From the NCBI GenBank assembly GCA_030625165.1, contig DAOURL010000008.1:1-32900 (forward strand): a stretch of DNA of 32,900 bases. Direction: 5' to 3'. Below, piece after piece: positions 6,495 through 32,749 of the stretch. The notes beneath the pieces were generated by a model that was given only the letters and a program-made list of their open reading frames with translations, was not told where the DNA came from and did no database searches. Each line of letters begins with the position of its first letter. Position 1 is the first letter of the stretch. Origin of the DNA: Methanosarcinales archaeon (GTDB taxonomy: Archaea > Halobacteriota > Methanosarcinia > Methanosarcinales > Methanogasteraceae). The translations under genes were made by a program, and so were the position numbers.

Positions 6495-6637
6495 AATCGA
6501 TTTTTGAGACGTTCGTGCAACCGACATCTTTACATACACAGTGCACAAACTGTACTATAATTGGAACGTACATCCCAAAACAATGTCCATTGTGCAGGAA
6601 TTCCGAATGGTGCAGTCATGTCTCAGACAACGATTGA
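6470..6637 (+). CDS. Possible small zinc-ribbon protein
   Basis: A 55-residue frame with a four-Cys zinc ribbon: C25-x2-C28 (CTNC), ten residues, then C39-x2-C42 (CPLC). This spacing resembles rubredoxin-like knuckles. GGGGGTG about 15 bases upstream could serve as its ribosome binding site; a GTG at 6452 is an alternative start. It overlaps the first 20 bases of the Roadblock gene. The Cys pattern argues for a real gene, but a TATA-like box inside it and the weak start leave doubt. Confidence 0.4.
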   Translation: MMDGDLTEQSIFETFVQPTSLHTQCTNCTIIGTYIPKQCPLCRNSEWCSHVSDND

Positions 6638-6995
6638 TCAATTAAACGTGCTCCTCGCGGATCTGACCGCTCGCGTCGATTGCATACGCGGGATTGTCAT
6701 ATCATCCGCAGACGGTCTTAAGATAGCTGATCGGTTTCGCGATCACTCTTATGACACGCCGATTGCCCATGCGATCAGCGCATCGATAGTCGGTCTGGCA
6801 AACAAATCCGTCCACAATCTCGACTTGCCCCCATCCGATCGTATCGTGATTTATACTGGTGATGGGATCGTCGCGGTCTTCAATCTAGGAAATGCTTCGC
6901 TGTTAGCGCTGCTCGACCCTGACGCCAATGTCGGGCTGGTGATGATTGAATTGCAACACGCCGCTGAAAAGGTCAAAAAGGTTATGAGGTTATAG
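6618..6995 (+). CDS. Roadblock/LC7 domain protein
   Basis: A 125-residue single-domain Roadblock/LC7 protein. This fold forms homodimers that regulate small Ras-like GTPases. Typical features are the N-terminal helix (INQLNVLL-like), GIVISSADGLKIADRF with the family's ..ssDGl.ia signature, and a C-terminal helix ending AAEKVKKVMRL. The ATG at 6618 was chosen because upstream residues do not match the family. The stop is immediately followed by the GTG start of the V4R gene, so the two form a unit. No GTPase gene is adjacent. Confidence 0.85.
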   Translation: MSQTTIDQLNVLLADLTARVDCIRGIVISSADGLKIADRFRDHSYDTPIAHAISASIVGLANKSVHNLDLPPSDRIVIYTGDGIVAVFNLGNASLLALLDPDANVGLVMIELQHAAEKVKKVMRL

Positions 6996-7460
6996 GTGAA
7001 AACAGAAGGTATGGAACCGGATGAGGACATGAACATCCCGATATACCCGAGGGCTGGCGATCTGGTGTTGCTGATGAACTCGCTTGTCGATGTGATCGGC
7101 AGAGGGAGCGCGGGTATTTTATATAATTTCGGTAAGCAGCTCGCAGAGAGGTACTATGCGCGCATGAGTATACCAAAAGACCTTGAGCCTGATGCAATCT
7201 TTAAGAATATCTTGAGCAGCATGATGTTTTCCGACTGGTTCACAAAGATGGAGATCGACAGAAGCAATGGATTTGTTGTTACGCTGCACAATGTCTTCGA
7301 ACTGGAAGCGGACGAGGAGAACTGCAATTTTATCCGCGGTTTTCTTGCCGGGCTATCATCGAGCATCTACCACGCACCGTACACCTGCAAGGAGAGCCGC
7401 AATCCTGAGAAGGTTAGTGTCTTCACGCTCACCGCACGGAGTTCTTCTATAAAATATTAA
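6996..7460 (+). CDS. V4R domain protein
   Basis: A 154-residue protein that looks like a stand-alone V4R (4-vinyl reductase / Bet3-like) domain, a small-molecule or partner-binding fold. Supporting motifs are an N-terminal GRGSAGILYNFGKQLA helix and the C-terminal CNFIRGFLAGLSSSIYH followed by a Cys-containing strand (APYTCKES) and a final VSVFTLTARS strand. It directly abuts the Roadblock gene (GTG start at 6996; ATG at 7011 is an alternative). Both folds occur in GTPase regulation, so a signalling or trafficking-like switch is plausible but inferred. Confidence 0.75.
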   Translation: MKTEGMEPDEDMNIPIYPRAGDLVLLMNSLVDVIGRGSAGILYNFGKQLAERYYARMSIPKDLEPDAIFKNILSSMMFSDWFTKMEIDRSNGFVVTLHNVFELEADEENCNFIRGFLAGLSSSIYHAPYTCKESRNPEKVSVFTLTARSSSIKY

Positions 7461-14950: not shown

Positions 14951-14974
14951 CCTCCAAAACATATTTTACATTGT

Positions 14975-14995
14975 ACCTCATTATCATCATGAGGT
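14975..14995 (+). promoter_or_regulatory. Leader stem-loop with ACCTCATTATCA element, copy 2
   Basis: ACCTCAT (14975-14981) and ATGAGGT (14989-14995) form a perfect 7-bp stem with a seven-base loop at the predicted 5' end of the archaellum mRNA. The 5' half is identical to the element before the surface-protein operon at 9867-9878, while the loop is much shorter. Confidence 0.5.
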
Positions 14996-15039
14996 TGGTG
15001 ATCGTGTGGGGTAAACAACAATACAGGAGGAAACAAATA

Positions 15040-15705
15040 ATGAGTAAATGGAAATTCCTTGAGAAATTCAAGGACTTTGGGAAGGACGAAAAGGCATTCA
15101 CAGGTCTGGAAGCAGCAATCGTGCTGACCGCATTCGTCGTGGTTGCAGCGGTATTCAGCTATGTGGTGCTTGGAGCGGGATTCTTCACATCGGAGAAGAG
15201 CAAGGAGGTCATCCACACAGGTATGGACCAGGCAACTTCTTCGGTCGAACTCGCGGGAGATGTGATAGGTCACAGTACTGATAATACGCTGTTAACGAAT
15301 GTAACAGTGTACCTGCAGCTGACAGCAGGCAACAATCCTATTGACCTATCTAAGTTGACGGTCGCGTATGCCGACAAATACGTGTACATCGGAAGTCTTA
15401 CGCATAGCGACAATACGACATACGATAGCACCTACCGGAACACAGATAACGTAACTTCTGCTGGACAATGGGATTTTGCCTTTGTCGCAGATAAAACCAA
15501 TAGTTACGGGAATGACGATGTCATGCTCGATTCAGGCGAGACGGCAAGGGTGCATATCTCACTGCCTGCTGAAGCAGGAAATGCTAACGGCGGGGTTGCG
15601 GTCAATAACTGGTTCCAGATCGAGATGAAACCAGCAAGTGGAGCAGCGCTCTCAATGGAGAAGACGATTCCGGGAGCTGTAGATGCCATAATGGTGTTGT
15701 ACTAA
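15040..15705 (+). CDS. flaB: Archaellin 1 (FlaB/ArlB)
   Basis: This archaellin is a filament subunit of the archaellum. It is 221 residues long, with a short charged leader and the class III signal region DEKAFTGLEAAIVLTAFVVV; cleavage by the FlaK-type prepilin peptidase is expected just before FTGLEA. The hydrophobic helix after it packs the filament core, and the remainder is a beta-rich outer domain with several N-x-T sites. The ATG at 15040 follows an AGGAGG site. Of the three archaellins it is the most diverged at the DNA level and is read first, so it may be a main subunit. Confidence 0.95.
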   Translation: MSKWKFLEKFKDFGKDEKAFTGLEAAIVLTAFVVVAAVFSYVVLGAGFFTSEKSKEVIHTGMDQATSSVELAGDVIGHSTDNTLLTNVTVYLQLTAGNNPIDLSKLTVAYADKYVYIGSLTHSDNTTYDSTYRNTDNVTSAGQWDFAFVADKTNSYGNDDVMLDSGETARVHISLPAEAGNANGGVAVNNWFQIEMKPASGAALSMEKTIPGAVDAIMVLY

Positions 15706-15707
15706 GA

Positions 15708-15893
15708 GGTGATGAAGATGAGACTATTTAATAAACTGTTGAAGGATGAGAGAGCTTTCACTGGTCTGGAAGCAGCGATCGTGCTGACCGCGTTCGTCGT
15801 GGTTGCAGCGGTATTCAGTTATGTGGTACTGGGTGCTGGCTTCTTCACATCTGAGAAGAGTAAAGAGGTCATCCACACAGGCGTTGAGCAGGC
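15708..15893 (+). repeat. 186-bp archaellin direct repeat, copy 1
   Basis: The ribosome binding site and the first ~58 codons of archaellin 2 match 16266-16451 in archaellin 3 with a single mismatch (A15774 against G16332). Downstream of this the genes diverge strongly. Confidence 0.9.
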
Positions 15894-16263
15894 AACATCA
15901 TCGGCAGAGGTGGTTGGTGATATCATCGGCAGAGAGACAACTGATGACAGTTATATAGACTATATCAACTTCACCATTGAGTTGACAGCAGGCAACAACC
16001 CGCTCGATCTTGATCAGGCGACGATATCATATACATCAGCGACCAGACACGAACCATCGGTGACCTGGGCGTACACGGTTTTTGAAGGCGACACCGATAA
16101 CATGCTTGAATCGCACGAAAAAGCTGAGATCCAGGTAACGGTTCCGGGAAATCTTGGAACATATACAGAGTTCCAGCTTGAGTTCAAGCCAAACGTGGGT
16201 GGCACACTGCCGATATCGAGGACAACGCCGGGCACGATAGACAAGATAATGAGGTTGTACTAA
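15718..16263 (+). CDS. flaB: Archaellin 2 (FlaB/ArlB)
   Basis: The second archaellin, 181 residues and the shortest of the three, with the same core helix (ERAFTGLEAAIVLTAFVVV) and a shorter, different outer domain. The ATG at 15718 is preferred, because GAGGTGAT just upstream is an ideal ribosome binding site; the GTG at 15709 lies inside it. It sits 12 bases after archaellin 1. Its 5' part is nearly identical in DNA to archaellin 3. Confidence 0.93.
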   Translation: MRLFNKLLKDERAFTGLEAAIVLTAFVVVAAVFSYVVLGAGFFTSEKSKEVIHTGVEQATSSAEVVGDIIGRETTDDSYIDYINFTIELTAGNNPLDLDQATISYTSATRHEPSVTWAYTVFEGDTDNMLESHEKAEIQVTVPGNLGTYTEFQLEFKPNVGGTLPISRTTPGTIDKIMRLY

Positions 16264-16265
16264 GG

Positions 16266-16451
16266 GGTGATGAAGATGAGACTATTTAATAAACTGTTGA
16301 AGGATGAGAGAGCTTTCACTGGTCTGGAAGCGGCGATCGTGCTGACCGCGTTCGTCGTGGTTGCAGCGGTATTCAGTTATGTGGTACTGGGTGCTGGCTT
16401 CTTCACATCTGAGAAGAGTAAAGAGGTCATCCACACAGGCGTTGAGCAGGC
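16266..16451 (+). repeat. 186-bp archaellin direct repeat, copy 2
   Basis: Partner of 15708-15893, offset by 558 bases. Recombination between the copies would remove exactly one archaellin unit and fuse the two genes in frame. Confidence 0.9.
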
Positions 16452-16998
16452 GACATCCTCTATGGAGCTCGGCGGCTATGTGGTCGGACACGGGTGGACG
16501 TATGGCTACGTGAACGCGTCCGCGGGGACCTGGAACGCTTCGGGTGGTGGTACTGACTATCTGTCATACTACGCATGGGGCAATGATACAGAGGATCGGA
16601 ACAGAGTGAACGCGACCGGGCTCACCGTTATGGAGTTCCAGGTGGAGCTTGCTGCAGGACAGAATCCGATTGACATGGATAAGATTGTGATCTCATACAG
16701 CGATGATGACACGTATGTAGCCCAGGTGGACGCTGTAACAACTACCAATGCAAGTAGCGGCAACTTTACCGTGACTGCAACATCCGGACAGTGGGCCTAC
16801 AGCCTGCTGACAGGTGAGATGGGCGGTTCCAACATGCTCGATCCGACAGAGAAGATGCTGATAGTGGTGGCATTGCCAGACTGGGGCGCAACCATTTATG
16901 AAGAGTTCGTGATCGATATAAAGCCTGCACAGGGAGCGACTCTGACGATGACGAAGACCGCACCGGGCGCGATACAGAAGACGATGGTACTCCATTAG
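16276..16998 (+). CDS. flaB: Archaellin 3 (FlaB/ArlB)
   Basis: The third archaellin, 240 residues and the longest. The core helix is identical to archaellin 2. The outer domain has an extra glycine- and aromatic-rich insertion near residues 70-110 (about 16480-16600) with N-x-S/T sites. The ATG at 16276 follows GGGGTGAT. A T-rich stretch after the stop may reduce transcription into the motor genes, so filament subunits are made in excess. Confidence 0.93.
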   Translation: MRLFNKLLKDERAFTGLEAAIVLTAFVVVAAVFSYVVLGAGFFTSEKSKEVIHTGVEQATSSMELGGYVVGHGWTYGYVNASAGTWNASGGGTDYLSYYAWGNDTEDRNRVNATGLTVMEFQVELAAGQNPIDMDKIVISYSDDDTYVAQVDAVTTTNASSGNFTVTATSGQWAYSLLTGEMGGSNMLDPTEKMLIVVALPDWGATIYEEFVIDIKPAQGATLTMTKTAPGAIQKTMVLH

Positions 16999-17001
16999 AG
17001 T

Positions 17002-17026
17002 ACCTCTTCTTTATTTTTTGGGAGGT
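17002..17026 (+). promoter_or_regulatory. T-rich attenuator and possible RBS hairpin
   Basis: CTTCTTTATTTTTT right after the last archaellin resembles an archaeal oligo-T transcript end, giving partial read-through. The flanking ACCTC (17002-17006) can pair with GAGGT (17022-17026) of the next ribosome binding site, with the T-rich stretch as loop. Confidence 0.45.
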
Positions 17027-17033
17027 GGGAATC

Positions 17034-17969
17034 ATGGAATCAGATAAAAGACTAACATCACTTGATAACGAGTTCAAGATCGTGAAAGGGGAGATAAAAG
17101 CGTTACTGATAGATATCCGTGAGATCATGAATAACATGGAGAATCCATTCTACAATACTCAAGGTATAACTGGTGGTCCGGATACATCAGTAGAGGTAAA
17201 GGCGGAACTGAAGGGAGACGCTCCGGGGGGGAGCATCCAGCCTGAAGATGTGTTAGAACAGGAGCCCGAACGGGAGCACCATCCGGACTTTACAGAGATG
17301 CCGGTGCAGCATGATGGGATGCAGCCGATGGGAGCAAGACATGCACATAACGTTGCAGAGACGCCAGTGCAGCAGGATGGACTGCAGCCGATGGGGGGAA
17401 CACCGGAACCGTATCATCCGGGTTTTGCAGAGACGCCGATGCAACAGGGGATGCCTATGCGGCAGATGGGGGGAACACCGGAACCGTATCATCCGTATCA
17501 TCCGGACTTTGCAGAGATACCGGTGCAGCATGATGGGACGACGCAGGAGGCGACGCCAGAACACATTCCTGACTTTGCAGAGATGTTTAAGCAGTACGAG
17601 GAAGCGAAGCAGAGCGAAGGGATGCCGGAAGAAACCCTGGAAATCCAACCTGATAACGGATTCGATATCTACACCCTCGCCGAACTGATGAGATGGACGG
17701 ATTACACACTTAAAACGATCGAACGGAGTAGATTGGATGAGCTGCTGGATCTGTGTGTGTTTACTGGACATATCTCAGAGACGCTAAAAGACACGGTCTC
17801 GAAGATCGCAGACATGTCCGCTCAGGAGGTTGCTGAAGGGAGTACGTCAACGATGAAAGATCACATAGCCGCGATGTTCCAGTTGAATGCGGTATTGAAT
17901 CCAAGCGAGTCTGATCAGAAGGCGATCTATTCAATATATGGAGAATTGCCATGGAGGACGGTGGGGTAA
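17034..17969 (+). CDS. Archaellum FlaC-FlaD/E fusion
   Basis: A 311-residue cytosolic archaellum protein. The N-terminal part (about 5-35, SLDNEFKIVKGEIKALLIDI) is a FlaC-like coiled coil. The C-terminal part (about 205-310) has the FlaD/FlaE domain (TLAELMRWTDYTLKTIE, then LDELLDLCVFTGHISETLKD). FlaC, D and E form the ring linking the motor to the chemotaxis adaptor CheF in euryarchaea. Between the domains lie about 120 residues of imperfect tandem repeats of H-P-x-F-A-E-x-P-x-Q-x-D-G type. The ATG at 17034 follows GGAGGTG. Confidence 0.85.
   Translation: MESDKRLTSLDNEFKIVKGEIKALLIDIREIMNNMENPFYNTQGITGGPDTSVEVKAELKGDAPGGSIQPEDVLEQEPEREHHPDFTEMPVQHDGMQPMGARHAHNVAETPVQQDGLQPMGGTPEPYHPGFAETPMQQGMPMRQMGGTPEPYHPYHPDFAEIPVQHDGTTQEATPEHIPDFAEMFKQYEEAKQSEGMPEETLEIQPDNGFDIYTLAELMRWTDYTLKTIERSRLDELLDLCVFTGHISETLKDTVSKIADMSAQEVAEGSTSTMKDHIAAMFQLNAVLNPSESDQKAIYSIYGELPWRTVG
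17276..17590 (+). repeat. Tandem repeat coding for FlaC-D/E linker
   Basis: About five degenerate units of 60-85 bases encode HPDFTEMPVQHDG, AHNVAETPVQQDG, HPGFAETPMQQG, HPDFAEIPVQHDG and IPDFAEMFKQYEE. The phrase GGGGGAACACCGGAACCGTA occurs in two units. Confidence 0.8.
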
Positions 17970-18461
17970 ATGGGCGGAGAAACGATCAGTATTGCTATGA
18001 TCACGATAGCGTCCGTGATATGTGCTGCAACATTCGTCACTTCAGCATTTCCGGCGATTGCAAGGGCGCAGGATCCGCTCATAGCTTCAGCAGACGCGAT
18101 CAATGATAGGATGAAGACCGATATAACGATTATACACGAGACAGACTCTTTATCAGGAAGCATCGTATACATCTGGGTCAAGAACGTGGGAAACAATCGC
18201 ATCCATCCGAATCTGATCGCTAACTCAGACCTCTTCTTCGGACCCGAAGGAGATTTCATGAGGGTTGTATATAATGAGACCGGATCGATCTCACCAGGCT
18301 GGAACTACACAATCGAAAACGGTGGTGCTAAATGGGGGCAGGGAGAGACGATCAAGGTCACGATGAATATGCCTGGTAATCCGGTTATACCAGGGACGGA
18401 GTATTTCGTCAAGTTCATAATGTATAATGGTATCTCGGATGAGGATTATTTCACGGTGTGA
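17970..18461 (+). CDS. flaF: Archaellum stator protein FlaF (ArlF)
   Basis: FlaF is a membrane-anchored protein with an outer beta-sandwich that binds the S-layer and acts as part of the stator. The 163-residue sequence has an N-terminal transmembrane helix (about 5-32, ending FVTSAFPAIA) with no peptidase site. A beta-rich domain follows, containing SGSIVYIWVKNVGNNRIHPN, a typical FlaF/FlaG signature. It begins directly after the previous stop. The neighbour FlaG is its known partner. Confidence 0.9.
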   Translation: MGGETISIAMITIASVICAATFVTSAFPAIARAQDPLIASADAINDRMKTDITIIHETDSLSGSIVYIWVKNVGNNRIHPNLIANSDLFFGPEGDFMRVVYNETGSISPGWNYTIENGGAKWGQGETIKVTMNMPGNPVIPGTEYFVKFIMYNGISDEDYFTV

Positions 18462-18466
18462 GGGAA

Positions 18467-18982
18467 ATGGGGGCTGGATCAATCATTGCGGCGATAGTAG
18501 CGGTTGCGGCAATCCTGATAGCAGCCAATGTCGCCATAACAGGGGGGTTATACATGACCAATACACTAACAAGCTCGATGAAGGAAGTGCAGGATGCAAA
18601 GAATGAGCAGTTGAAGACTGAGATAGAGATCAGTAACATCACTGCGAATAAAACCCGTATCGACGTAACGCTTCGTAACACGGGTCATGAACGGATCAGG
18701 GAATATTCGCAGATGGACCTGATCGTGCATTACTATTCGGTCAATGGTGGGTATGTGAGGATCGTCTGGCTATCATACACGAATGGGACGCCGGACGGTG
18801 ATGAATGGACCGTAACCGGGATATCACCGGATCGGATCAATCCGGATATATTCGATCCTGATGAGGAGATGACGATCCGGATCGAGGTGGATGATAGCGA
18901 TCCGATGAAATATGAATACATAAACTGGCTCCAGATAACGACTCCAACCGGAGTGAGTACATCAAAGTATTTTAGTGGGTGA
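18467..18982 (+). CDS. flaG: Archaellum stator protein FlaG (ArlG)
   Basis: FlaG forms a periplasm-like filament or dimer with FlaF that ties the motor to the envelope. The 171-residue protein has an N-terminal membrane helix (MGAGSIIAAIVAVAAILIAA) and a beta-sandwich with TRIDVTLRNTGHERIREYSQ. It is related to FlaF, as usual. The start is ATG at 18467 with a very close GAGGGA site, or GTG at 18458 overlapping the FlaF stop. Confidence 0.9.
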   Translation: MGAGSIIAAIVAVAAILIAANVAITGGLYMTNTLTSSMKEVQDAKNEQLKTEIEISNITANKTRIDVTLRNTGHERIREYSQMDLIVHYYSVNGGYVRIVWLSYTNGTPDGDEWTVTGISPDRINPDIFDPDEEMTIRIEVDDSDPMKYEYINWLQITTPTGVSTSKYFSG

Positions 18983-18987
18983 TCAAT

Positions 18988-19725
18988 ATGGCTGAAGAAG
19001 AATTCGACGATAAAGAAGAAGACTTTCTTGCGGATGTCTTATCCTCAGGAAATTATGAGATCGATCAGAAGATGGGTGGCGGAATCCCAATGAATTCGCT
19101 ATCCCTCTTCGAAGGGGAAAATGACAGTGGCAAGTCGGTCCTTGTACAGCAGATTATGTGGGGGGGCTTGAATCAGGGACGGCGTATCGCCATATTCACG
19201 ACTGAAAATACTGTCAAGAGCTTGCTTAAGCAGATGACAAGTCTGTCACTCGATGTAGATGATTATTTCATCATAGGACGTTTGAATATATTTCCGATCC
19301 ATGTGCAGGGCGTTGACTGGGCTGAAGATGTGGGTGGCAACCTACTCGAGTTCATGCTGAAATCCATGGCGCAGTGTAAGAATGATGTCATCATCATCGA
19401 TTCGCTCACGGTCTTTGTCTTTCATTCGAATGATAACGACATCTTAAACTTCTTCACAGGATGTAAAAAGCTGTGCGATCTTGGAAAGACAATTCTACTG
19501 ACGGCACATGGGTACGCCTTCCCTGAGAATCTTCTGATCAGGATCAGATCGATCTGTGACGCACACCTGCACCTGAAGATGGAAGAAGCTGGCGATCAGA
19601 TGATAAAGTCGCTGGTGGTTGCAAAGATACGTGGTGCACAGAAGAGCACGGGAAACATCGTCAGCTTCGACGTTGATCCTGGCTTTGGTATGAGGATCAT
19701 CCCGATCTCGAAGGCAAAGGCGTAA
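18988..19725 (+). CDS. flaH: Archaellum regulatory ATPase FlaH (ArlH)
   Basis: A KaiC/RecA-fold protein that binds ATP and associates with FlaI in the motor. In 245 residues the P-loop is visible as GENDSGKS at 43-50, and the Walker B strand as NDVIIIDSLTVF near 132-143. ATP-binding state and autophosphorylation regulate its interaction with FlaI in other archaea. The ATG at 18988 follows GGGTGAT; a GTG at 18979 overlaps the FlaG stop and is less likely. Confidence 0.95.
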   Translation: MAEEEFDDKEEDFLADVLSSGNYEIDQKMGGGIPMNSLSLFEGENDSGKSVLVQQIMWGGLNQGRRIAIFTTENTVKSLLKQMTSLSLDVDDYFIIGRLNIFPIHVQGVDWAEDVGGNLLEFMLKSMAQCKNDVIIIDSLTVFVFHSNDNDILNFFTGCKKLCDLGKTILLTAHGYAFPENLLIRIRSICDAHLHLKMEEAGDQMIKSLVVAKIRGAQKSTGNIVSFDVDPGFGMRIIPISKAKA

Positions 19726-19739
19726 GTAAGGTGATTAAG

Positions 19740-21494
19740 ATGGAGTCTCTACCCTTTGAACCGAACGTTCATGAGGCGCATGGAGCCGATCTGATGCAGT
19801 GTGGACTCTATCGCATGTTACCTCCGGATGCAAAGAAGTTTATCAGTGTAGAGGAGAACCGTCATGTACTTGATTACATCCACATGCTTCCACTCGATGA
19901 TATAGGGGTACCAAAGTTCTACCCCAAGCTTTCAAGAGATCTGAAGAAGATAACGAAGCCGAATATCATATATCCTGCCGGAGATGGGATATCCATCCAT
20001 ATTTATCCGGATAAAGATGATGTGAGGAACTACTACATCCCTATCGAACCAACCCTGTTCGTGAATGTCGATGAACTGCTCATAGAGGTGGAAGAAGCAC
20101 TTGTCGATATCGTAGACGTTCTGGAGGTTACAACAGATGATATATATGCTAAGAAAGCCTTACTGGAAGAGGGTCTCGATGATGTATGCATCATAGAAGA
20201 CGATGGAGATGTAGGGGCAGAAGGGGGGATCAGGAAGAGGATATTTGATCGCATCCGCGGATTTGCCAGGACCACCAAAAATAAGAAGGTGCATGTAACC
20301 CCTGACGAATTTCAGAAGATCAAATACTACATATTCAAGGATAAGATCGGGATGGGACCCCTCCAGCCACTTCTGATGGATCCGTATATCGAGGATATCA
20401 GTTGCAGTGGTGTGGGGCAGATATTTGTGGAGCACAAGATCTTTTCCGGATTAAAGACGACGATAACGTTTAATGATATAGCGGAACTCGATTCTTATGT
20501 GGTACGGATGTCAGAGAAGATAGGAAAGCCGATAACATACCGGGATCCGATCGTTGATGCTGCGCTTCCTGACGGATCAAGGATAAACATCGTGTTCGGA
20601 GAGGATGTATCGAAACGGGGCAGCAATTTCACGATAAGGAAGTTTTCAGAGACGCCGCTCAGCATCTTAAACCTCATCGACTTCCATACGCTCGACTATA
20701 AGATGGCTGCGTATCTCTGGATGTTGTTGGGTGCGGGGATGAACTGTTTCGTTGTTGGTGAGACCGCATCAGGAAAGACGACGACGCTTAATGCAATGAC
20801 AACGTGTATGCGGGCAGACTCAAAAATTATATCGATAGAAGATACGCCTGAATTACAGGTACCTCATAAGAACTGGTTAAGAGAAGTCACAAGAGGATCC
20901 GGAGACGGGGGAAGCTCGGACGTGACAATGTTTGATCTGCTGAAGGCTGCCTTGAGGCAGCGTCCGGATGAGATAATAATCGGCGAGATCAGGGGCGCTG
21001 AGGGTAACATCGCTTTTCAGGCGATGCAGACCGGACATCCTGCGATGGCTACGTTTCACGCAGCATCCGTTGAGAAACTGATCCAGCGGCTGACCGGAGA
21101 CCCTATAAATGTTCCGAAGACCTACATAGACAACTTAAACCTTGTTGTCATCCAGAATTCTGTGAATGTCCCGGGTAAAGGGATGGCGAGGCGCATCACA
21201 AGCATCAACGAGATTATAGGATATGATCCATCCTCCCAGGCATTCTCCTTCATCGAGACGTTTCAGTGGGATGCCTCAAAAGATGCATTCAAATTTACAG
21301 GAAATAACAACTCGTACCTGCTTGAGAACCATATCGCTACAAAGCGCGGCTTACCGAAGAATAAACGAAGAAGGATATATAAAGAGCTTGATCGAAGAGA
21401 GAAGGTCTTAAAGAAGATGCATGATGCAGGGGTACTCGGATTCTATGAGTTATTCAAGATGATGGGGCGTGTGGAAGAGGGGGGGATCGTGTGA
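19740..21494 (+). CDS. flaI: Archaellum motor ATPase FlaI (ArlI)
   Basis: A type II/IV secretion-superfamily ATPase that powers filament assembly and rotation. The 584-residue protein has an N-terminal domain of about 250 residues, then the catalytic domain: Walker A GETASGKT at 340-347, the Asp box SIIEDTPELQ-like stretch near 365, Walker B DEIIIGEIRG near 411, and the His box GHPAMATFHA near 433-442. The ATG at 19740 is preceded by AAGGTGAT. It acts as a hexamer beneath FlaJ, with FlaH alongside. Confidence 0.96.
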   Translation: MESLPFEPNVHEAHGADLMQCGLYRMLPPDAKKFISVEENRHVLDYIHMLPLDDIGVPKFYPKLSRDLKKITKPNIIYPAGDGISIHIYPDKDDVRNYYIPIEPTLFVNVDELLIEVEEALVDIVDVLEVTTDDIYAKKALLEEGLDDVCIIEDDGDVGAEGGIRKRIFDRIRGFARTTKNKKVHVTPDEFQKIKYYIFKDKIGMGPLQPLLMDPYIEDISCSGVGQIFVEHKIFSGLKTTITFNDIAELDSYVVRMSEKIGKPITYRDPIVDAALPDGSRINIVFGEDVSKRGSNFTIRKFSETPLSILNLIDFHTLDYKMAAYLWMLLGAGMNCFVVGETASGKTTTLNAMTTCMRADSKIISIEDTPELQVPHKNWLREVTRGSGDGGSSDVTMFDLLKAALRQRPDEIIIGEIRGAEGNIAFQAMQTGHPAMATFHAASVEKLIQRLTGDPINVPKTYIDNLNLVVIQNSVNVPGKGMARRITSINEIIGYDPSSQAFSFIETFQWDASKDAFKFTGNNNSYLLENHIATKRGLPKNKRRRIYKELDRREKVLKKMHDAGVLGFYELFKMMGRVEEGGIV

Positions 21495-22969
21495 GCGAGG
21501 AGAAGAGGGTTGCGGATGATCTACTCTTCCTGCTCACGTATATGGCATCGATTGCCACAGCAGATATCGATAGGAATGAGCTGTTCAAACATACATCTGA
21601 GCAGAACTATCCGCTGTCGATATATTTCAAGCGGGTATACACGCTTGCTGCAAAGTGGAGCTATGCATATTCAAAGGCGTGCAAATTCATCTCAAAAAAG
21701 GCAAAATTTGCGGTTTTAAAGGAATTTTTCGGGAGAATGGCAAGTGCCATGTCATCAGGAGAGCCTGAAAAGGAGTTTCTGAAGAATGAGCTGAGCACGA
21801 TGGAAAGTATATACTCCAATAATTATGAAAGAAGCATCGAGGCACTTAAGAAATGGACCGATGGATATACCGCGCTCCTCATCTCAACAACGCTCATTGT
21901 GATGGTTATACTACTATCAACAATGCTATATCCAATCGGAGATATACATCAAACTGCGTTTGTGATCTCTTTGGTGATGGTAGTCATCTGTGGGATAGGG
22001 GTATTTACCATACGCGATGCGGCTCCATACGAGTTGAGAACACATTCGCTTGAGACCGGATCGAAAGAACAGGAGATCATAAAACTGCTCTGCAGGGCAT
22101 TACTTCCAGCCGGATTCATAGTGACACTTGGTTTGATTCTGTTACAGATACATCTCGGGTATATCATGATCACTGCAGCAGCATTCGTAGCTCCGATTGG
22201 GGTTATGGCGGTGATTGATGATGGCAAGGTAACCGGCAGGGATTATGATTTCCCTTCGTTTGCAAAGACACTTGGTTCACTTGCAGGAACGATGGGTATC
22301 AACCCGAATATTGCGATGAATTACTTAGACCGCGAAACAGTCGGATCCCTTGAACCGCTGGTCAATACGTTACATAAAAGTCTATCGATCGAACTCAGCC
22401 CGGGTCTCAGCTGGGAGAGGTTCATCAGGGACAGCGGGTCTGAGCTGATAAACCGATGCACAAGGATATTTAACGATGCTATAAATCTTGGCGGAGATCC
22501 TGCAGAGATCGGGAAGATCGTCTCTTCGTCAAGCCTTGCAATCGTTCTCTTAAGGATGAAGCGAAAACCTGTCAGTGCCAACTTTGCAGGGTTGGTTATA
22601 CTGCTCCACACCTCAATGTCAGCCCTTCTCATATTCATCATCGAGATCATAGTCGCATTTAATGTTGCGCTTGCAACGATGTTTGAATCATCGGGCTTAG
22701 CGGAGGGTGCGGAGGGTGCTATGTCGGGTATGTCCGGGCTTGCTGGCAGTTTTGGAGGTACTGGTTCTGCCGAGCTTACCTTCCTGTACCAGTTTACGAT
22801 AGCAGCCGTCTTGATACTGACGATTTCAAACACCATTGCAATGATGGTGGCAGATGGCGGTGCAAAGTGTAAGATATTCTTCTATGGGGCGATAGTAACT
22901 GCTGCATCGGGTCTGGTTATGCTGGTCGTACCGGGTCTTGTATCCACGATGTTCGCGATTAACGTGTAA
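21491..22969 (+). CDS. flaJ: Archaellum membrane platform FlaJ (ArlJ)
   Basis: FlaJ is the polytopic membrane protein on which FlaI acts, related to GspF/PilC. In 492 residues it has two cytoplasmic T2SF-like domains (about 45-125 and 255-360) and groups of membrane helices near 130-185, 200-245, 365-400 and 430-490. The start is a GTG overlapping the FlaI stop by four bases, indicating coupling. A Gly/Ala/Met-rich loop (SSGLAEGAEGAMSGMSGLAG) sits between the last helices and is typical of the family. Confidence 0.94.
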   Translation: MSEEKRVADDLLFLLTYMASIATADIDRNELFKHTSEQNYPLSIYFKRVYTLAAKWSYAYSKACKFISKKAKFAVLKEFFGRMASAMSSGEPEKEFLKNELSTMESIYSNNYERSIEALKKWTDGYTALLISTTLIVMVILLSTMLYPIGDIHQTAFVISLVMVVICGIGVFTIRDAAPYELRTHSLETGSKEQEIIKLLCRALLPAGFIVTLGLILLQIHLGYIMITAAAFVAPIGVMAVIDDGKVTGRDYDFPSFAKTLGSLAGTMGINPNIAMNYLDRETVGSLEPLVNTLHKSLSIELSPGLSWERFIRDSGSELINRCTRIFNDAINLGGDPAEIGKIVSSSSLAIVLLRMKRKPVSANFAGLVILLHTSMSALLIFIIEIIVAFNVALATMFESSGLAEGAEGAMSGMSGLAGSFGGTGSAELTFLYQFTIAAVLILTISNTIAMMVADGGAKCKIFFYGAIVTAASGLVMLVVPGLVSTMFAINV

Positions 22970-25729: not shown

Positions 25730-26236
25730 TCACTCCGAACACAATTCTACGATCATCTTCCGCCTCGAAAGCGGCGTCACAATCGCTTTACCTTTTTTCG
25801 TGAGCCCCATGACCCGGAGAACGTCCTTTGGGATGTACATCCCAAGTCTTCCTGCGCCGACTGTGGATATGCTGCATTCGTATCCTCCGGCTGGCTTGTT
25901 TTTGGTGTATCGATCGATGATCTTCGATGAACCGGTATCGAATGCGAAATCTCCGCAGTTCGAGCACCGGAGCCCGGTCAGATTCGGGATCACGATCCGC
26001 TCGCCAGCCAGCACAACCTCAAATACGAGATCATCTACAAAACTGACTGTGTGTGATCCGCATACCGGGCATGTCGCATCTGCAATATCCTTCAGTGGCG
26101 ATCCGCGTCTGCCTGCGCGCCTCTTTGCGATCTCTATTTTTGTTTCCTCCACCATTTCAGGGGTTATGGTTGGAATATCATCCATCGGAGGTGTATCTTC
26201 TTTTTTTGTGTTCATGTTTGTGTTTGTTTGTGTCAA
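25730..26236 (-). CDS. Antitoxin-like YgiT zinc finger / AbrB-type protein
   Basis: A 168-residue protein with an N-terminal polar region, a YgiT-type zinc finger (CPVCG near 56-60 and CSNCG near 90-94) and a C-terminal AbrB/SpoVT-like strand region (ISTVGAGRLGMYIPKDVLRV, then GLTKKGKAIVTPLSRRKMIV). This two-part design is common in antitoxins next to DUF4258-type toxins: zinc binding folds the protein and the AbrB part binds DNA. It follows the toxin-like gene with a four-base overlap. It is convergent with ccmB. High confidence in domain type, moderate in role. Confidence 0.75.
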   Translation of the reverse strand: MTQTNTNMNTKKEDTPPMDDIPTITPEMVEETKIEIAKRRAGRRGSPLKDIADATCPVCGSHTVSFVDDLVFEVVLAGERIVIPNLTGLRCSNCGDFAFDTGSSKIIDRYTKNKPAGGYECSISTVGAGRLGMYIPKDVLRVMGLTKKGKAIVTPLSRRKMIVELCSE

Positions 26237-26574
26237 TCTTCATCGAATGCTGTGATAATCCTCACAAGACTGCCAGAATCGATCTCGTGCACTTCAAACA
26301 CGATGCGGATCAGTCTTGGCGGATAATTCATTCGAGACCACGATAAGTATCGTCCATCTATTTCCCGATCTGGTTTGTAGTAGCCATATAAAAGTCCGTT
26401 TATTAGGTCATCCTCGGTGATATTCGGGTGGCGTGATAATATGTGATGCCATTGGATGGCATATCTCTCGTTGAGAACGAGTTCTCTTACCTGCTCTTTC
26501 AGTTTGAGCAGATCTGTATGTACGTTTTTTGTTTCCATGTATATACTTCCTTTTACCTGTTTGCCATTTGTCAT
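26233..26574 (-). CDS. DUF4258-like toxin
   Basis: A 113-residue protein. After a basic N-terminus, a His/Arg-rich region (AIQWHHILSRHPNITEDDLINGLL) and the ending RLIRIVFEVHEIDSG..VRIITAFDED fit the DUF4258 family of small ribonuclease-like toxins paired with YgiT antitoxins. The ATG at 26574 follows a GGAGG site at about 12 bases. It precedes the antitoxin by a four-base overlap, the order toxin then antitoxin. The exact target is unknown. Confidence 0.7.
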   Translation of the reverse strand: MTNGKQVKGSIYMETKNVHTDLLKLKEQVRELVLNERYAIQWHHILSRHPNITEDDLINGLLYGYYKPDREIDGRYLSWSRMNYPPRLIRIVFEVHEIDSGSLVRIITAFDED

Positions 26575-29556: not shown

Positions 29557-30264
29557 CTACGATCTGGATATTACCATCGACAGGGTGATCGCTAAGATAA
29601 CATTGGCTACACACAGCGCCATTATCAGCAGGTATAAGACAGGCACATTCAGCGAAAAGACGTCGCGCCATCTGATCCGCGTCAGATCGCCCCAACTTGC
29701 GGCGAATATGCTTTCAGACATATTTTCTTTGATATCCTCCAGTTCTATGACTGAATTCACCGATGTTTCGAGAATCTTTTCAGTCTGCGGGTCAAATATG
29801 CCGGATCTCGCAAGATAAATCGAAACAGACGCCATCCGCTGGATATCATTGTTCACACCCCTCAACATCTTCACGAATCTACCGAACATATCGTGCGACA
29901 TGGCTTCTTTCATGTCATCGAAGACGATCACGCATCTGCCAAATTCCCCGATTGCGTTGTAGATCGAACGGAGCATGCAATCATAGTCTGCCGAATCCGA
30001 GCAGTGTGCCACGTCGTCGTTGCTGCCGGTTCCACCGCTGATCATATCGATGAACAGCATGTTATCGGTCAATTTGTAAACCTTTGAGTCGTATCTGGAC
30101 TGGAGTGCTCTGACGGTATCCGGAGGGTTTTTGTAACAGACCCAGATCACGCCCTCGACCGGAGTGTTCAGGCACACCTGATAAACCGTTTCGTAGAGAT
30201 CCTTCTCCTTGTGTCCATACAGCAGCACACTCCCATAAGAAAATATGTCCTCGAATGATTCCAT
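29557..30264 (-). CDS. Degenerate RecA/KaiC-like protein with C-terminal TM
   Basis: A 235-residue protein in which the first ~185 residues look like a RecA/KaiC-type fold. There is a first strand YGSVLLYGHKEKDLYETVYQ where a P-loop would be, IWVCYKNPPDTVRALQSRY, MLFIDMISG and RCVIVFDDMKEAMSHD in the Walker B position. The GKS/T of a true P-loop is missing. A single membrane helix lies at about 208-232 (VPVLYLLIMALCVANVILAI). A GGGGGT site precedes the ATG. It resembles archaeal inactive KaiC/FlaH-like signalling proteins. The role is unknown. Confidence 0.6.
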   Translation of the reverse strand: MESFEDIFSYGSVLLYGHKEKDLYETVYQVCLNTPVEGVIWVCYKNPPDTVRALQSRYDSKVYKLTDNMLFIDMISGGTGSNDDVAHCSDSADYDCMLRSIYNAIGEFGRCVIVFDDMKEAMSHDMFGRFVKMLRGVNNDIQRMASVSIYLARSGIFDPQTEKILETSVNSVIELEDIKENMSESIFAASWGDLTRIRWRDVFSLNVPVLYLLIMALCVANVILAITLSMVISRS

Positions 30265-31690: not shown

Positions 31691-32749
31691 CTACAATTCC
31701 ACCATATCAGCCGCCGCCTGCAGGATCATTAGAGCGTCGAGCGAAGTGACCGCCCCGTCGCCGCTGACATCGGCTGCATCGTCATGTGCACCGGTGGCTG
31801 CAAGGCGAAGTGCGATTGCGGCGTCCGCAGGGGTGATGGCGCCGTCGCCGTTGAGGTCGCCTTTCACAGATGCTTCAGATAGGTAGCAGAGCGGGTGATA
31901 ATCGAAATTGTTATCGTCAATATTGTACGACGTATTTCCAAGTCCATTCCCATTCGTATCATCACCAGTATAGTCGCTCCAGTAGTTTCCGCCGAGGTAG
32001 GGTCCGCCGATTATATTTGATCCGGGGGTTACAGTTACGGTGGTGTTCCACCGGTTGGATCCGTCGTCGTAGACGTTGTTTGCGTTGTTTGCGTTGTCGA
32101 AGTAGTTGTTGTAGATCAGGTTGTTGCTCGAATCGTCCAAGTAGATGCCTTCATAGTTGTACAATACAGTGTTGCCTGTGAGCGTGTTGTTGCTCGAAGA
32201 CTCCAGATAGATGCCGTCACCTTCGTTGTTCGATGCGGTGTTGTTCAGAAGTATGTTGTCGCTCGAAGACTTCAGGTAGATGCCGTACTTGTTGTTCGAT
32301 GCGGTGTTTTCAGAGATATTGCAGTGATCTGCTCCGTTGAGATAAATCCCGGCATTGCTAATTCCGGTTGCTCCGGTTGCCCCGGCCACATTGAACCCTG
32401 AGATGTTCACGTAATTAGCAGTCACCTCAAAGATGTGATCGTCCGAATCTGCGGTCACGGTCACCACATCCGCGCCCTCGCCTGCAAGCGTGAGATGCGC
32501 TGTCGCAATCTCCACATTCTCGGCGTAGTCGCCGGCATTCACACAGATTATATCACCGCTGCTCGCGTTATTCACTGCATCCTGTATCGGTGCTCCGCTC
32601 GCGTTAAACGCGCCGCTGTCGCGCCACCAGCCAGTCTCGTTGACGCAGATGTCACCGCAGTCGCAAGAGATCGCGGCTGCCGTCGTTATGGATGCCGTAA
32701 TAAGTGCTAAAATCAGTGCCGTTGTTTTAATGATCGTGTATGCTTTCAT
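31691..32749 (-). CDS. Secreted NosD-like beta-helix protein with dockerin
   Basis: A 352-residue exported protein. It has a signal peptide (about 1-26), a short Cys-rich segment (SCDCGDICVNETGWW) and a right-handed parallel beta-helix of NosD/PbH1 type (about 45-250). Repeats of about 22-24 residues include NNKYGIYLKSSSDNILLNN and NEGDGIYLESSSNNTLTGN. The C-terminal dockerin (about 290-350) has the two calcium loops GDLNGDGAITPADAAIAL and ADVSGDGAVTSLDALMIL. Dockerins bind cohesins on other proteins, so this may be part of a surface or extracellular complex. No cohesin is visible here. Confidence 0.85.
   Translation of the reverse strand: MKAYTIIKTTALILALITASITTAAAISCDCGDICVNETGWWRDSGAFNASGAPIQDAVNNASSGDIICVNAGDYAENVEIATAHLTLAGEGADVVTVTADSDDHIFEVTANYVNISGFNVAGATGATGISNAGIYLNGADHCNISENTASNNKYGIYLKSSSDNILLNNTASNNEGDGIYLESSSNNTLTGNTVLYNYEGIYLDDSSNNLIYNNYFDNANNANNVYDDGSNRWNTTVTVTPGSNIIGGPYLGGNYWSDYTGDDTNGNGLGNTSYNIDDNNFDYHPLCYLSEASVKGDLNGDGAITPADAAIALRLAATGAHDDAADVSGDGAVTSLDALMILQAAADMVEL
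32150..32320 (-). repeat. DNA repeats coding for beta-helix turns
   Basis: Phrases such as GTTGTTCGATGCGGTGTT and TTGTTGCTCGAA (+ strand) recur every 66-72 bases and encode successive beta-helix coils. Confidence 0.7.

Follow-up and report, generated by a model that had tools for sequence, protein, structure and literature searches.

A role as hubs of archaeal signalling has been proposed for KaiC-like ATPases, and their placement in the cell and their partners are largely open. Archaea also harbor KaiC relatives without a P-loop, including proteins with DUF7090, DUF835 and DUF7504 domains. Among the closest described systems is the "inactivated KaiC-like ATPase" (iKaiC), a domain attributed to Makarova et al. 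2017 by PMC5847659, whose Table 2 lists the iKaiC-REC architecture for Methanosarcinaceae. A further member with the KaiC-family fold is FlaH/ArlH, an ATPase that acts at a membrane machine (PMC13286277). Here we analyzed a stretch of 32,900 nucleotides from a Methanosarcinales archaeon (hereafter, the window), in which a reverse-strand coding sequence (29557-30264) encodes a membrane-tailed inactivated-KaiC protein of 235 amino acids (hereafter, iKaiC-TM). We consider iKaiC-TM to be a catalytically dead, tail-anchored protein; most likely, it is the subunit that docks an active KaiC-family ATPase at the membrane and regulates this enzyme.

The open reading frame, with an ATG at 30264 and a stop at 29557, is a real gene and not a chance frame. 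Four further genomes from the genus have orthologues with 89-94% identity to it, all with an intact frame; those relatives that have names are assemblies labelled Methanosarcinales or ANME-2 cluster. The dN/dS values within the genus (0.17-0.29, about 0.2) indicated purifying selection on the gene in these five genomes. The only freely evolving part is a linker in the C-terminal portion, where dN was similar to or higher than dS.

The fold would not be revealed by sequence alone, as the Pfam KaiC model matched the window protein with an E value of only 0.12. A search against NCBIfam gave no matches, and no convincing solved relative was found by sequence in the PDB. AlphaFold2 models from alignments of 10 and 20 sequences had mean pLDDT values of 78.4 and 80.6 and an identical topology. 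The top Foldseek matches of both models in the PDB were nearly all KaiC/RecA ATPases, with PH0284 (2dr3) as the best (E value 3e-7, probability 1.00) and KaiC, PH0186 and FlaH (4yds) also among them. The preliminary description of this DNA had proposed a RecA/KaiC-like fold that lacks the P-loop, keeps the Walker B pattern and ends with a membrane helix, and each of these points was borne out; neither a different fold nor an intact nucleotide site was seen in the models. Residues 1-176 (29737-30264, reverse strand) form the RecA-like alpha/beta sandwich of the KaiC/RecA superfamily. They are followed by a flexible linker (residues 177-190, 29695-29736, reverse strand), with pLDDT below 50 over residues 177-192, and by a tail (29563-29694, reverse strand) that comprises the motif W191-x7-W199-R-D-V-F-S-L and then a membrane helix at residues 208-234; between the disordered part and this helix, the chain has a short amphipathic stretch. 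The single C-terminal membrane helix is real by hydropathy, with a KD19 value of 2.60 at residue 209 vs a maximum of 0.98 elsewhere in the protein.

The Walker A loop was lost at SVLLYGHKEKDLY (residues 12-24, 30193-30231, reverse strand). Strand 1 (12-17) and helix A (20-33) are joined by residues 18-19 only, too few to accommodate a phosphate-binding loop. The G-x4-GK[ST] motif was absent from all 20 family members in the alignment, and the lineage of the window has a further 4-residue deletion at this site, where members outside the genus are about four residues longer. Because at least 90% of the orthologues retain E20 and Y24, the GHKEKDLY stretch that the preliminary description had noticed here is a conserved replacement of the site, not random decay. 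The Walker B strand CVIVFDD (residues 111-117, 29914-29934, reverse strand; DSSP strand at 111-115) keeps its acidic residue, with D116 invariant in the family alignment. The C-terminal K-x-R...H hairpin of the KaiC partners (see below) is absent from the iKaiC-TM alignment and has the linker and tail in its place, which makes it unlikely that the protein completes the active site of a neighbor in a ring of mixed active and degenerate subunits. The window protein shares the fold of KaiC (PF06745), PH0284 and PH0186 by Foldseek but differs from them in lacking the GxxxxGK[ST] motif of active KaiC-family ATPases and the hairpin, and in being anchored to the membrane. It is best read as a catalytically dead KaiC homologue.

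Membrane-tailed orthologues were detected in seven families of the phylum, the window's own (f1) and six others (f2, f4, f5, f20, f32 and f34). The wider family includes REC-fused proteins of f4, mostly of 353-362 amino acids, and soluble proteins of about 250-310 amino acids. Profile A1 recovered REC-fused Methanosarcinaceae homologues over the whole domain, with E values down to 4e-21. Judged by architecture and homology, the REC-fused group appears to correspond to the iKaiC-REC of PMC5847659, and f4 is therefore probably Methanosarcinaceae. The window protein resembles iKaiC-REC in significant, though distant, whole-domain sequence homology, in the missing P-loop and in its archaeal signalling context, and with its lost nucleotide site it belongs with the described iKaiC domains. 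However, where iKaiC-REC has a receiver domain the window protein has a linker and membrane tail, and iKaiC-TM genes from outside the window's genus usually come paired with a KaiC of their own. DUF7090 and DUF835 likewise seem to behave as P-loop-less KaiC relatives: one orthologue (L010) passed the Pfam DUF7090 cutoff (E value 1.1e-7) and approached DUF835 (6e-6), whereas the window protein matched none of the DUF7090, DUF835 and DUF7504 models. Because iKaiC-REC and these relatives exist, the kind of protein is already known and the membrane-tailed form is a variant of it.

We examined 15 membrane-tailed loci outside the window's genus. At 14 of them, from 13 genomes of five families, a P-loop-intact KaiC of one clade is encoded directly upstream of iKaiC-TM. 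Relative to the stop codon of the KaiC gene, candidate iKaiC-TM starts are at about -44 to +20 nt, so that the genes abut or overlap, as in the pair L033:7062-7799 and L033:7780-8511 (both forward strand). All 14 partner KaiCs that were aligned keep the Walker A motif GPxGxGKT, and K214, R216 and H220 of the C-terminal K-x-R...H hairpin are invariant in them. For the 15th locus (G321), the partner KaiC is encoded on a different contig, next to a protein that contains REC, and one genome (G374) has a second, unpaired copy. An order-wide search separated the partner clade (E value 1e-73 or better) from other KaiCs (1e-52 or worse) by a clear gap, and the membrane-tailed gene adjoins it in all genomes of the order that have the clade. 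The trees of iKaiC-TM and partner KaiC mirrored each other (r = 0.93, Mantel p = 1e-4), a correlation confounded by shared species history. The profile-profile similarity between the two proteins is weak, so that they are not recent duplicates. The tandem loci and the mirrored trees together make the partnership with a KaiC ATPase well supported, and the partner appears to be a dedicated KaiC clade rather than FlaH. The suggestion in the preliminary description that the protein is a partner of KaiC/FlaH-like ATPases was therefore supported for KaiC and not for FlaH; the conserved partner forms a KaiC clade of its own, and FlaH is unlinked to the gene in other genomes.

Several of these loci also have signalling genes close by, with PAS-HisKA kinase and REC proteins encoded at L193 and L208, and a double KaiC at L036 and L080. 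L034 includes a KaiC-Arf/Ras fusion and a DUF7504 protein; the fusion (L034:8723-9934, reverse strand) joins a KaiC-like domain to an Arf/Ras-type GTPase domain and lies beside both the DUF7504 protein and the KaiC/iKaiC-TM pair.

A different role would be that of a stand-alone sensor or adaptor without any KaiC partner, comparable to the iKaiC-REC and DUF835 signalling proteins. Its dead RecA domain would then recognize a response regulator or a ligand other than a nucleotide, and the tandem KaiC would only share its pathway. Such a role would fit the conserved E20 and Y24 in place of the P-loop, the fusion of relatives to REC, and the persistence of the gene under purifying selection as an orphan in the window's genus. 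However, the 14 of 15 tandem loci with coupled or overlapping frames point to direct cooperation with KaiC at least outside the genus, and we regard the stand-alone role as rather unlikely.

We also considered that iKaiC-TM could be an archaellum accessory, that is, a membrane-bound FlaH-like protein docking to the archaellum motor encoded in the window. The window does have a real archaellum operon (14971-22969) with FlaH (18979-19725), orthologue L010 has a weak NCBIfam match to FlaH (E value 0.007), and Foldseek also matched the FlaH structure 4yds. However, FlaH matched no better than the KaiC and PH0284 structures, the two genes are 10 kb apart, and the window FlaH retains its P-loop (FEGENDSGKS). 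The window protein neither reached the NCBIfam ArlH cutoff (215 bits) nor lies in or linked to the archaellum operon, and a KaiC adjoining one of the orthologues scored 51 bits vs the same cutoff and is not a FlaH. The co-occurrence with archaellum genes that the preliminary description had proposed as a check was profiled by an ArlH search in 28 genomes, in which above-cutoff ArlH was found in iKaiC-TM carriers and non-carriers alike. Three genomes (G001, G003 and G321), all of them incomplete assemblies, have the gene and no above-cutoff ArlH. No linkage of FlaH/ArlH to the iKaiC-TM gene was found outside the window's genus either. Any relation by sequence or linkage thus ends at the superfamily level, the link to FlaH and the archaellum proposed in the preliminary description was not supported, and the accessory role is very unlikely. 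A defense system was rejected as well, since the only PADLOC matches, to P-loop or Csn2 models, were weak.

In the genus of the window the gene is solitary: its neighbors are an M24 peptidase gene, in divergent orientation, and cbiD, in convergent orientation, and this synteny is conserved. A partner-clade KaiC was not found in the five genomes (estimated completeness 73-94%). The best KaiC in the genus scored 168-174 bits vs at least 275 bits for the partner clade, so that the partnership is not demonstrable for the window protein itself. The stem branch of the genus is long (1.33 changes per site), and by these measures the gene is an orphan that has diverged fast. The missing partner, the long stem branch and the further shortened P-loop region are what a relic would have, one that slowly decays after the loss of its KaiC. 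However, the frame is intact in all five genomes, the domain and tail are conserved, and the selection signal indicates that the gene is not decaying, which leaves a relic very unlikely. Given the absent partner and the long stem branch, the protein was probably re-partnered or re-purposed, and here it would either act on a different KaiC in the cell or serve a new task. The nearest KaiC of the window's genome (G000:C146:7041-7709) was rejected as a dedicated partner; it is in a type IV pilus-like locus, and its relatives occur in genomes without iKaiC-TM. It is possible that this KaiC is a working partner of the protein. At that locus (L184, 6151-7745, forward strand), a KaiC relative whose P-loop is altered (GEIGAGNAEF) is paired with an intact KaiC, and the pair adjoins the gene of a pilin-like DUF7289 protein and that of a PilB3-like ATPase.

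Docking of an active KaiC at the membrane by iKaiC-TM builds on the observed fold, the absence of Walker A and hairpin, the membrane helix, the tandem genes outside the genus, the parallel trees and the selection on the gene. The KaiC-like domain would face the cytoplasm, be unable to bind nucleotide in the normal way, and be tethered by the flexible linker and the C-terminal membrane helix. The KaiC ATPase would switch its state with ATP or phosphorylation, and iKaiC-TM may hold it at the membrane or hand its signal to the membrane. Physical binding of iKaiC-TM to KaiC is suggested by gene order, co-occurrence and the tree correlation. The conserved pairing of an active KaiC gene with one for a dead, membrane-tailed KaiC would offer a concrete and testable route from the state of KaiC to the membrane. 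The KaiC/iKaiC-TM operon, the tail it shares with other proteins, and the orphan state in the window's genus are the most interesting parts of the system.

The tail, W-x7-W-R-[DE]-V-F-[ST]-L plus a membrane helix, is common to iKaiC-TM and to small proteins (mostly 95-140 amino acids) with four invariant cysteines. These small Cys4 proteins had no Pfam or NCBIfam matches, and a single full-length query already detected them (E values 3e-8 to 9e-7, 40-48% identity). The tail profile matched in 35 of the 186 genomes of the order, a count that covers both architectures and includes a few weak matches, and matches were also obtained in families f11, f17, f21 and f32. The small Cys4 genes adjoin an mptA-like GTP cyclohydrolase gene in f2 and f5, and are near deoC in f11, f17 and f21. 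Common descent of the tail in both architectures is well supported, and the tail may act as a docking element. Its sharing points to a site of recruitment used by further proteins as well, which would imply a common membrane receptor or assembly site for iKaiC-TM and the Cys4 proteins. Tentatively, and with less confidence than for the docking role itself, the system could be seen as a two-gene module of a KaiC ATPase and a dead KaiC with a membrane-docking tail, in which the tail was borrowed by Cys4 proteins and the dead subunit outlived the ATPase in one ANME-2 genus. Examples of the small proteins, all unannotated membrane proteins, include those at L089:1309-1653, L102, L114, L198:6243-6569 and L200:5876-6229, among others.

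Several other genes of the window were observed. A Roadblock/LC7 gene is followed directly by a 154-amino-acid gene without a Pfam match (6561-7460, forward strand), and it is possible that the two form a small-GTPase signalling pair. An overlapping pair with the look of a toxin-antitoxin system (25730-26574, reverse strand) had no Pfam match at 1e-3; by eye, one gene encodes a CPVC...CSNC zinc-knuckle protein with an AbrB-like C-terminus and the second a small DUF4258-like protein. A NosD/beta-helix protein with a C-terminal dockerin domain is encoded at 31691-32749 (reverse strand) in this ANME-2-type archaeon.
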